Source: Nitrospirota bacterium
GTDB taxonomy: Bacteria; Nitrospirota; Thermodesulfovibrionia; Thermodesulfovibrionales; Magnetobacteriaceae
Assembly: GCA_015233895.1 (NCBI GenBank)
Contig: JADFXG010000008.1
Location: forward strand, 1 to 64,000
Length of the DNA stretch: 64,000 nucleotides
Direction of reading: 5' to 3'
Below, piece after piece: positions 47,087 through 52,524 of the stretch. The notes under the pieces are model-generated. The model saw nothing but the letters and a program-made list of their open reading frames with translations, did no database searches and was not told the origin of the DNA. Numbering within the stretch: position 1 is the first letter of the stretch; the number at the start of each line of letters is the position of its first letter. The position numbers and the translations under genes were made by a program.

Positions 47087-47953
47087 CTACTTAATCATAT
47101 CCATTACGAGCACAATAAAGACAATAGTTATATAGATAATTGAGTACACAAACAGTATTTTGTCACTTTTACTTTCTGAGAAATAAAACTTAACAGCAAA
47201 CACAATATAGATAATTCCAAGCACTGTACTTGTGATGAGATATATGTAGCCAGCCATAGCCAAAAAATACGGTAGCACACTAAGGGGCAAAAGTATAATG
47301 GTGTAAATCAGAGTTAAGGTTTTGGTTTTCATAATACCCTTTGAAATTGGTAGAATGGGAATCCCTGCCCGTGAGTAATCCTCCTTATACTTAAGTGCAT
47401 AGGCCCAGAAGTGGGGATGCTGCCATATAAACATAATGGCAAACAGTACAAATGCCTGAATATCCACTATTCCTTTAACTGCCACATAGCCAATGACAGG
47501 GGGAAGTGCTCCGGTGATGCTACCTACGTGAGTGACAAGGTGAGTGCGCCGTTTCATTAACACCGTGTACGGGATAACATATATAAACGCACTTATAAAC
47601 GTAAGGATGGCAGAGAGAGTGTTTATATAAATCAAAAAAATTGTAATTGCGGTAACTATAAGCACCAGGCCAAATATCAGTGCCGATGTGGGATAGATGC
47701 GTCCTTGTGGAATAGCTCTGACCATCGTACGCTTCATCAGAGAGTCTATGTCTTTATCAAAAAAGTTATTTAAAACAGCAGAACCGGCAGCCGAAAGCCC
47801 TATCCCAAGCATCGTGGGCAGGATGAGATGAAACGTTGGGAATCCCCTCTGAGCCATATACATACCGTTTAAGGCCGTTACCAGAACAAGCAGCACGATG
47901 CCGGGCTTCATAAGAACCACATGGTCTCTGACTATTGTTCTGTATCTTGTCAT
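47087..47953 (-). CDS. ctaB: protoheme IX farnesyltransferase (heme O synthase)
   Basis: 288 aa, UbiA superfamily, with about eight to nine membrane segments. The first prenyl-diphosphate motif is NNFFDKDIDSLMKRTMVRAIP near 62, and a second lies in ALKYKEDYSRAGIPILPI near 185. It converts heme B to heme O, which implies a heme-copper oxidase elsewhere in the genome. It has its own short promoter region; no oxidase genes are adjacent. Confidence 0.9.
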   Translation of the reverse strand: MTRYRTIVRDHVVLMKPGIVLLVLVTALNGMYMAQRGFPTFHLILPTMLGIGLSAAGSAVLNNFFDKDIDSLMKRTMVRAIPQGRIYPTSALIFGLVLIVTAITIFLIYINTLSAILTFISAFIYVIPYTVLMKRRTHLVTHVGSITGALPPVIGYVAVKGIVDIQAFVLFAIMFIWQHPHFWAYALKYKEDYSRAGIPILPISKGIMKTKTLTLIYTIILLPLSVLPYFLAMAGYIYLITSTVLGIIYIVFAVKFYFSESKSDKILFVYSIIYITIVFIVLVMDMIK

Positions 47954-48058
47954 TAAAGTATGTCCTGATAATTATAGCATTTTTTCATTGTTTTAACCGT
48001 CTATATCAAAACAAAACCAAACTCCATAATTTGTGTTATCCTAACGGGGATACATTAA

Positions 48059-49762
48059 ATGTTAATTGTGGATGATTGGAAAATGACAGATAGTTTGAAA
48101 AAAATTGCTACACTGTTTTTATTTCTCATTTTTGCTATTGTTCTCTATAAATACACACTTAAAGAGCCATACCATTTTGATTCGGTTCTTTACATGAAAA
48201 GTGTTGATGTTTTTAAAGAAACCTCCCGATTTGAGTGTTTCTTTGGCGCCAGGTGTTTAAGTTCATATATTTTAATCCCGTTTTCTATTTTTATTGGCGC
48301 AAAAACCCTTCCGGCTACAACTGTTATTACGGCTCTTTTGGCTTTGTTTTTTTACTATCTCTGGATACGCCGGATATTTAGTTTTAACGAGGGATTTCTT
48401 GCAGCCCTTCTTTTTTTCTTTATCCCCGCAAGCATAATAACCATAACTCACGTTAAAGAGGATTTTACAGCATTTATGTTTCTTTTTGCGGCATTTCTAA
48501 TGGCTTCAAAGGACAAACCGTCGTTTTTAAGACCTGCCTCCGGGCTCTGCTTTGGGTTAGCGTTGGTCTCAAAAGACATGCCAATTATATTTGTCCCGTT
48601 TTACTTTTCATATCTCTACATTATGGGCGCAGAGATTGAACAATCATATAAAAAACTGTTGACTAAGGAAAACATTATAATAGGCTGCAAAAACATCCTG
48701 ACAGCCTTATTACTTTCTCTTATAGTATCGTTTGCTATAGACAGACACCACTTCATAGATCTATTTCATAAAACGGCATCCCCTTATGACGGACAGTTTA
48801 TGGGAGTCTTTTCACAGATACTCCCTATTGGGTTAGCCTCATGGGAGCACGGTGTCGGTTCTTTTTTATTTTACTTGCAGTTTGTCTCTCTTATAGCTCC
48901 ATTTTTTGCTAAAACCAAAAAGGAAACATTAATTTATATATTATTTTGTATCCAGTTTATTGCTCTTTCGATTTTTATTTCTAATCTTACGGTTGTAAAA
49001 TACAGGCACTTTGTGTGGACTTCATTTCTGTGCCTCCCACCTATGCTCTTTACAGTCAGAAGTTTTTTTATGGGTTTTAAGCTTAGCAAAAGAATTACTG
49101 TATCAGTCCTGTATGTGGTTTTTGTAGCAACTGCGGCAGCACTTTTTTGGTCAACATATCCCGCCCTTGATCTGCACAGCCGATATAACACAGTCTCGGC
49201 TATTTATAAAAACTCAGACATTGATAAAAACAACTCTGTCGTTTCCGGTGTTGACGACTGCGTGTTTGCCCGGTACTTTAACGGTCTTACCTGTGTGGTA
49301 CATCCTATAGACCCCACGGAAAGCGAAGCATCAGACTTTTCACAAGAGATTGATAAGTATTTGGATGAGAGGAAAAATGTGTATATCCTTCCGGATTTCT
49401 TTTCGTACGACAGATATAAAAACATGGAAAAGCAGTTTGTTCCGAAATTTAAGTTTTTAACCGGTAAGAACGTCCTCTATAGTGATTTTCACTACATGGA
49501 CTATGGCTTTACCCTTAAGCAGTATGAACATAAACTTTCTCATACGTACTCAGTGAGAACCGGCAGCCAATGTGGAGCCCCATATAATAAAACCGCCGAG
49601 GAGACCATTAAAGACGAACACGGCCAGCCGTTGCCCTTTGAAATATACACATATAATATAATGTGCACACGAGTTTCCACCGCAGTTAAAGTCTATGTTT
49701 ATAAGCACAGAGTGATAACAGACCTCAATATGGGAATGATTGTAAAGGTTGAAAGACCGTAA
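48059..49762 (+). CDS. GT-C-like integral membrane protein
   Basis: 567 aa. About ten membrane segments cover residues 12-360, with an acidic motif after the first (EPYHFDSVLYMKSVDVF) and another in HVKEDFTAFMFL. This resembles GT-C glycosyltransferases of the PMT/ArnT kind. A soluble domain of about 190 residues ends the protein. No exact family was recognised. A start at 48083 (MTDSLKK) is also possible. The gene is followed by a GC-rich hairpin. Confidence 0.5.
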   Translation: MLIVDDWKMTDSLKKIATLFLFLIFAIVLYKYTLKEPYHFDSVLYMKSVDVFKETSRFECFFGARCLSSYILIPFSIFIGAKTLPATTVITALLALFFYYLWIRRIFSFNEGFLAALLFFFIPASIITITHVKEDFTAFMFLFAAFLMASKDKPSFLRPASGLCFGLALVSKDMPIIFVPFYFSYLYIMGAEIEQSYKKLLTKENIIIGCKNILTALLLSLIVSFAIDRHHFIDLFHKTASPYDGQFMGVFSQILPIGLASWEHGVGSFLFYLQFVSLIAPFFAKTKKETLIYILFCIQFIALSIFISNLTVVKYRHFVWTSFLCLPPMLFTVRSFFMGFKLSKRITVSVLYVVFVATAAALFWSTYPALDLHSRYNTVSAIYKNSDIDKNNSVVSGVDDCVFARYFNGLTCVVHPIDPTESEASDFSQEIDKYLDERKNVYILPDFFSYDRYKNMEKQFVPKFKFLTGKNVLYSDFHYMDYGFTLKQYEHKLSHTYSVRTGSQCGAPYNKTAEETIKDEHGQPLPFEIYTYNIMCTRVSTAVKVYVYKHRVITDLNMGMIVKVERP

Positions 49763-49807: not shown

Positions 49808-49910
49808 TTTAGTGGAGGAAAGATCCCTGCAAAACAGATTAAAAACCATTGTCAAAATCTTTTAAAAGCATGTATAGTTAATTAAGAACTCAGCAAAAAA
49901 GGAAGAAATA

Positions 49911-51390
49911 TTGCTAACAAGATTTAAAGTATCCGGGTTTAAAAACCTTGTAGATGTTGACATTAGGTTTGGACCTTTTACGTGTATAGCCGGAGCTAAT
50001 GGTGTCGGGAAATCAAACCTGTTCGATGCCATCCTTTTTTTTTAGTTCTCTTGCCGAAATACCATTTGTTGACGCAGCTATGTCGGTTCGAGATGAAAAT
50101 GGCAGAGCTACGGATGTAAAAAGCATATTTCACAGATCGGGCAATTCTACAGATAATGTGATTACAATGGAAGCAGAGATGATAGTTCCTGAAGCAGACA
50201 TTGACGATCCTGGTCAGAATGCAAAGGCAAGTATTACGTTTCTTAGATATTCTATCGAACTTGGCCTTAATGAAAATGAAGACACAGGCTCTCAAGGCAA
50301 TATTCAGCTGTTCAAAGAGGAACTTTATCGCATAAAAAAGGGTGATGCCTCCAAACATCTGCTCTTTCCACATAAAAAGTCTTGGCGTGATTCTGTAATT
50401 ACAACAGCAAGTAAAGGGGGAAGCCCATTTATTTCAACTGATAAAAGCGGTTCAGATGATAGTATAAAAATACATCAGGATCGTGGAGATAATAAGGGAG
50501 GCGGAAGAACTGGTTCAGTTTTAGCTAAAAATCTAACCAAAACCGTACTATCCACTTTAACAAATGCAGCTGAGACACGCACTGCAATAATAGCAAAAAG
50601 AGAGATGCAGTCATGGAGATTATTGCTCCTTGAGCCAACTGCTCTCCGTAAACCCGATAAATTTAATGCGCCAAAAAAGTTAGGCTCTGATGGCTCTCAC
50701 CTTCCATCAACGTTATACCATTTGCCGCGAACGAGAGAGAATTTTAATAAAGAAAATCAGGTTGAGATCGAAAATCAGGTTTACACAGAGGTTGCAAACC
50801 GGCTCTCAGAGTTAATAGATAACGTCTATGAAATTAGTGTTGACCGTGACGAAAAACGTGAGCTGCTTACGCTTGTACTCACTGATCGAAGTGGTTCCAC
50901 TTTTGCAGCAAGAGATCTGTCCGATGGAACCCTCCGTTTTCTGGCTGCATCAGTGCTTGAGTTGGATACTCAGGCGCAAGGACTCATCTGTTTGGAGGAG
51001 CCAGAAAATGGTATTCATCCTGAACGGATTCCGGCAATGATAAGGCTGCTTAAAGATATAGCCACTGACACTGAATTCCCCGAAGGCTCTGATAATCCGC
51101 TTCGTCAAGTCATAATAAACACTCACTCACCAGCCGTTGTTGCTCAGGTTCCAGATGACTGCCTGATTATTGCACAACTTAGAGAAAACAAACGTGATAA
51201 TAACCGTTTTAAAAGTGTTCGTTTTAGCTGTTTAGATCAAACATGGAGAGCTGAAAAGCAGAAAGGAATTGAAATCGTTAATAAAGGGAAGCTGCTTTCG
51301 TATTTAAACCCTGTAGCTGCAAAAGATGAGAAAATGGAAGAGGGGCAACGGGTAATAGACAGAGATGACATGCAGCAATTGCTTCACTAA
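49911..51390 (+). pseudogene. AAA-family ATPase frameshifted at a T9 tract
   Basis: The reading frame begins at the TTG at 49911 (GGAAG site 5 bases upstream) with LLTRFKVSGFKNLVDVDI and an intact Walker A, GANGVGKSN, near residue 34. It hits a TAG at 50043, right after a run of nine T at 50035-50043. One T fewer restores a 492-aa protein that continues to Walker B LICLEEPENGIHPERI and a D-loop/H-loop region (NTHSPAVV). It resembles the OLD/AAA15-like ATPases of defence systems. It could be inactive, phase-variable, rescued by slippage, or an assembly error. Confidence 0.8.
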
Positions 51391-51408
51391 TTCTTCTGAA
51401 CATTTAAA

Positions 51409-51510
51409 ATGAACGAGATTAAGTACACATTGTTATCAGATGGCAGCTCTGATAAAAGACTTATTCAGATTCTTAACTGGTTGCTCAATGAACACTGTCC
51501 TAAATTAACA
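51409..51510 (+). pseudogene. 5' fragment of the ATPase partner gene, cut by IS630
   Basis: 34 codons beginning NEIKYTLLSDGSSDKRLIQIL, a TOPRIM-like opening typical of nuclease partners of AAA15-type ATPases. Homology stops exactly where the left inverted repeat of the IS630-family element begins. No continuation was found beyond the right end, so the 3' part seems deleted. It starts 18 bases after the ATPase stop. Confidence 0.6.
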
Positions 51511-51522
51511 GTAATTCCAATT

Positions 51523-52463
51523 CTAATTCATGAGAGCATTAATAATCCAGGGCCAGACAACAGTAGAGAGTACCCGCTCTTTATTATTTTCTAAGTCAAA
51601 CAATGATTTTTCAAAGTGATTTTCAAAAGAGTCGAAACAATCAAAAAAGTGACTATGGAAATATTTTTCACGGAAATCATCCCATATATGTTCAACAGGA
51701 TTAAGTTCTGGTGAATATGGGGGGAGATACTTAAATTTCATATTGGATGGAATCTTAAGAGATTTTGTCTTGTGCCAACCTGCGTTATCAAGTATCATGA
51801 CTACTCTGTGGTTGGGATGCCTATATGCGAGCTCATCAATGAAAATCTGCATACAATCAGTGTTAACATGTGGTAGAGTGTATCAATGCTTCCGTCTTCA
51901 ACAGAAACAGCGGCATAAATATATTCTTGACTTACTGTAGCGCTACAGAGAGGGCGAGTTGGTTTTGGACACCAGCAGCGCCTTATATCAGAGATAAGAC
52001 CAAAACGGGCTTCATGTGGATTTCTTTTGTCCGGTGCAATCTTATGCCAGCCATTCCTATGTAGAAGGTTATACACTGATGCTAAAGCTGTCTTACGGCC
52101 TAACTTTTCATCCAACGATTTTTTGACCTCTCCAACAACTAAAATGCCTCCATTTGTAGCCTTCTCAAAAAATGGAGTTAGAAATGCCTTTTCCTCTTCA
52201 TTACTCATGTTTTCCCGCCGCCTACCTCCTCGCTTAGCCTTGTTTGTTATACATGCCCCTCCACTTTTTATAAATTGTGTCCGCAAACGACATGCCCAAC
52301 CTTTTGACACACCTATGACCGACGCCGTTTGCTCTATTGAAAATCCATATTCCAGTGGCAATACTACCGCTTGTGCTTGCTTGAAGTCCCCTACTGTCTT
52401 TGCTTTTGATAGAATCTCTTTGGCTTGTTCCAAGTGTCTCCATCCTTGTGACTTTCTTGACAT
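51523..52463 (-). pseudogene. IS630-family transposase, frameshifted
   Basis: The N-terminal part (52463 to about 51860) contains an HTH (SIEQTASVIGVSKGWACRL) and a second winged region. The C-terminal part (51852-51523) contains the IS630 DDE elements DNAGWHKTK and LPPYSPELNPVEHIW. The frames join by a -1 shift near 51880, where LYHMLT in one frame corresponds to LPHVNTDCMQIF in the other. No slippery heptamer is evident, so this is more likely a decay mutation or sequence error than programmed frameshifting. Confidence 0.82.
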
Positions 52464-52491
52464 ACACTTACCTCCTTTCTTGTAAGTGTAT
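52462..52491 (-). promoter_or_regulatory. hairpin enclosing the transposase ribosome binding site
   Basis: A perfect 10-bp inverted repeat, ATACACTTAC / GTAAGTGTAT, has AAAGGAGG in its 10-base loop and the transposase ATG at its outer edge. Folding of the mRNA could limit translation of the transposase, a way some IS elements avoid activation by read-through transcription. Confidence 0.55.
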
Positions 52492-52524
52492 TATTTCATA
52501 TTTGATTTCGAATTGGAATAACTA

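Follow-up and report, generated by a model that had tools for sequence, protein, structure and literature searches.

In a 64,000-nt stretch of a Nitrospirota genome (hereafter the window), a putative defence ATPase gene is divided between two reading frames at a tract of nine consecutive T. This raises the question of whether the tract switches the expression of the gene, as the initial annotation proposed, or marks a gene that is being lost. Caution is warranted in reading such a locus: a split that falls exactly on a homopolymer resembles a switch, but whether switching could matter depends on the state of the operon partner.

Two halves of one ATPase gene

The 5′ piece (49911..50045, plus strand) starts at a TTG and encodes the N-terminal strand and the Walker A motif (GANGVGKSN) of an SMC/AbiEii-type ATPase; its translation, LLTRFKVSGFKNLVDVDIRFGPFTCIAGANGVGKSNLFDAILFF, ends after 44 codons at a premature TAG (50043-50045) that uses the last T of a run of exactly nine (50035-50043, plus strand), the point where the frame breaks. 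The remaining ~448 residues are encoded in a second frame (49999..51390, plus strand), which is open to its stop at 51388-51390 and retains the signature-like DLSDGTLRF, the Walker B LICLEEPENG and the INTHSP motifs. No single open frame thus holds both Walker motifs, with the TAG lying between them. Upstream of the 5′ piece is a leader that is common to the window and to an intact relative, G001 (49849..49910, plus strand), with an AGGA (49900-49903) before the TTG and a promoter-like TTGTCA-18-TATAGT, a match by consensus alone (10 of 12 positions).

Against the PADLOC profile PDLC04184 (HEC-01A), the upstream piece scored 54.4 bits (E 2.5e-15) over profile positions 1-43, and the downstream piece 240.7 bits (E 8e-72) over positions 43-397. 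Since both match one profile at adjoining positions, they are halves of one gene and the split is not a chance reading. The annotation was therefore right in calling the product a defence-type ATPase and in placing its Walker A half and the rest in different frames. Its statement that the two are separated exactly at the tract holds by homology only, because the downstream open frame begins 5′ of the T9 run and overlaps it. It was also right that the coding sequence is otherwise well kept: the frameshift aside, the ATPase frame is free of stops and carries few unusual changes.

HEC stands for Hma-embedded candidate, a name that reportedly comes from a guilt-by-embedding study. According to a paper on archaeal immunity, several HECs, HEC-06 included, have antiviral activity (PMC12988326); a literature search found no paper testing HEC-01, and a defence role of the HEC-01 operon is suggested by its family membership. 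The window ATPase resembles HEC-01A over most of the profile, yet departs from HEC-01 in being frameshifted and in having a truncated partner, so that the profile match is present while a single open frame and an adjacent intact HEC-01B are not. The MAD3 ATPase of MADS (NF047739) belongs to the same superfamily, but the downstream piece scored 98.4 bits against it, well short of the curated threshold of 420. A sequence search of the PDB returned no match.

The tract in relatives and the reality of the ninth T

G001 is a complete genome of the same genus and harbours an orthologue that is 84% identical in DNA, with T8 at the tract site. Its ATPase is a single open frame of 506 codons, followed directly by an intact 215-aa partner that matches HEC-01B (PDLC04210; 88 bits) and, weakly, DUF4276; in being adjacent with the ATPase first, the pair is like HEC-01. 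The same-genus orthologue with T8 (L084) begins at a TTG corresponding to 49911.

The comparison also took in 84 homologous loci from many phyla. Of the loci that extend to the Walker A motif, a single one (L081, broken elsewhere) fails to keep it in frame with the rest of the protein, and the partner lies directly downstream of the ATPase in about 77 of the 84 (list read by eye). Outside the genus, every homologue has a run of seven or fewer at the tract position. The T9 tract is thus not maintained across orthologues outside the genus, and a conserved contingency tract was rejected, as homologues lack the tract.

Downstream of the tract, dN/dS of the ATPase relative to G001 is 0.19 and dS is 0.54, the same level as that of the kdp genes (dS from 0.53 to 0.61). 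Changes at conserved positions are not in excess, with 8 in the window ATPase and 10 in the intact G001 orthologue. These values indicate that purifying selection acted on the gene through most of the period after the two species diverged, and therefore that the frameshift is recent.

The annotation had itself named one way in which its reading could fail, namely that the tract is really T8, which would leave the ATPase intact. Homopolymers are the usual site of sequencing and assembly errors, and G001 does have T8. However, two contigs binned in another same-genus assembly, G003, carry the same T9 (seen in L028) and the same IS630-family element as the window (the second contig being L059), with 100% identity to it across the ATPase start and 99.9% across the ATPase end and the following DNA. 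The neighbouring genes that belong to G003 proper share ~91% identity with the window, so that both contigs derive from an organism in the G003 bin that is closely related to that of the window. They amount to a second assembly of this lineage (the name of L028 is SPAdes-style), whose sample need not be an independent one. The comparison of related strains that the annotation had suggested thus gave T8 with an intact operon in another species of the genus and T9 in both assemblies of the lineage, the second of them being no length variant.

Moreover, 40 other 9-base A/T runs of the genome were sampled, each with 1 kb on either side. None was found to split a gene, which argues against systematic homopolymer error, and about 23 are in frame inside open genes. 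An error at this site is therefore scarcely credible and was rejected; the ninth T is very probably real, and the IS630 lesion stands whichever T count holds.

The G003 contigs show further differences from the window. The last 49 bases of L028 open with sequence that matches the window around 35369 (minus strand), and the first 55 bases of L059 match the IS630 element at 51783-51837, inverted. Considered as extra lesions, these contig ends look instead like amplification or assembly chimeras, being short pieces attached to inverted sequence from another part of the region, and were given no weight as evidence. Between the window and L028, ~40 substitutions plus an 11-base indel are all located within 0.7 kb (47504-48217), with identical flanks on both sides, for which recombination and a mixed-strain contig in G003 are proposed as alternatives.

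A partner gene cut short by an IS630-family element

Downstream of the ATPase, the start of a HEC-01B partner gene (51409..51513, plus strand) shares 89% identity with the corresponding part of the intact G001 partner. It is cut short after 35 of 215 codons by an IS630-family element (51514..52518, minus strand), the ends of which are approximate and were set from the inverted ATTCCAATTC/GAATTGGAAT termini and a copy on contig C5. In the sequence 3′ of the element, the remainder of the partner gene is absent. A whole-genome search with the intact G001 partner found no intact copy; all that it recovered was the first 35 residues here and, on C5, the last 39. Trans-complementation by another partner copy was rejected, there being none in the genome. 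With the partner truncated and no intact copy elsewhere in the genome, the operon carries two breaks and cannot be made whole from other loci. Further disabling mutations, in the annotation the mark of plain decay, are hence present, in the operon if not in the ATPase frame.

On C5 (L127, G000:C5:112000-122000), at ~C5:117034-117811, the last 39 residues of HEC-01B are joined to an IS630 fragment that is 99% identical to the window element and is interrupted by ~106 bp of unrelated sequence. This tail could have been displaced from the 3′ end of the window partner, or be debris of a second copy. The transposase of the window element (51523-52463) is itself split into two overlapping ORFs (51801-52463 and 51523-51852) with no obvious slippery run. 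The C5 copy has the identical split, so that either the break is programmed or it arose before these IS630 copies spread.

Pseudogenisation weighed against switching and slippage

Two lesions are therefore observed: an extra T (T9, versus T8 in the intact same-genus orthologue) and the truncation of the partner by IS630 after 35 codons. The locus is best explained, with a probability of about 0.82, as a recently inactivated two-gene HEC-01-type operon of an SMC/AbiEii-like ATPase and a ~215-aa partner. Replication slippage on a T8 run specific to the genus would account for the extra T. With the partner lost, the ATPase frame may have been released from selection, or the reverse; either order of frameshift and insertion fits. 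Provided that the ATPase needs its partner, as the conservation of the latter suggests, the operon is dead as a defence system. On this reading the locus is an ordinary case, a candidate defence operon of known type that has recently become a pseudogene. Two features speak against a pseudogene: the well-kept ATPase frame could be under selection through rare restoration, and a change from T8 to T9 inside one genus would also be expected of a switch.

These same features are what phase variation, the central proposal of the annotation, would call upon. Under it the T8/T9 tract is a contingency locus at which replication slippage turns the ATPase on and off, in line with a nine-base tract in the 5′ part of the gene, a preserved downstream frame and the T8, in frame, of G001. 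A mutable, out-of-frame tract inside the gene is indeed present. A contingency locus should also have an ON state that yields a complete functional system, and here that state would probably be incomplete, given the genome-wide loss of a partner whose conservation suggests that it is needed. T9 is moreover the only length in the two assemblies of the lineage, and runs at the site stay at seven or fewer in all homologues outside the genus. The in-frame 9-base runs of intact genes, common among those sampled, also count against it. Phase variation is thus improbable, the proposed stochastic switch finds no support as a working device, and any switching of the ATPase itself would probably be of little consequence for defence.

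In many bacteria, selection against A or T runs is reported to act at a length of nine (PMC1088944). The window has two 9-base T/A runs, versus 6.4 expected from shuffles, and the whole 3.7-Mb genome has 107 exact ones, so that such a run is unremarkable in both; as the sampled runs in open genes show, the lineage tolerates them in coding DNA.

The second route that the annotation had offered to stochastic expression, transcriptional slippage, would bring part of the mRNA into frame and supply a low, constant dose of ATPase. Slippage of 15-25% on a 9A run of tssM3 (PMC4256274) and of about 50% on 9A in Thermus dnaX (PMC1088944) has been reported, and poly(T) provokes more slippage by the E. 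coli RNA polymerase (PMC6260861). The Citrobacter tssM1 and Yersinia tssM3 genes are like the window ATPase in being interrupted at a 9-11 A/T homopolymer where slippage could restore the frame, but there slippage was measured (PMC4256274), whereas the window is known from its sequence and its partner gene is gone. The tolerance of 9-base runs in intact genes argues against a strong cost of slippage in this genome, and with an unconserved tract and a missing partner any product would likely be incidental. A leak of some full-length ATPase through RNA-polymerase slippage on T9 could thus still occur in principle, as the annotation held, but its product would be left without a partner, and slippage as the explanation of the locus is decidedly unlikely. 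It is highly unlikely, too, that in this lineage the ATPase functions by itself and that slippage between T8 and T9, in DNA or RNA, provides a bet-hedged phage defence in few cells or transcripts.

If pseudogenised, as is likely, the operon clearly illustrates how a candidate defence operon can turn over inside a genus: one species has it whole, another has it with two lesions, and in a third no copy was detected. G003 has its own copy of the gene upstream of the operon, and the operon does not come after it. The neighbours of the operon also differ between species: in G001 (C1:1602310-1604500) they are selA-like and glnB-like genes (read by eye), unlike those around 49849-51513 in the window.
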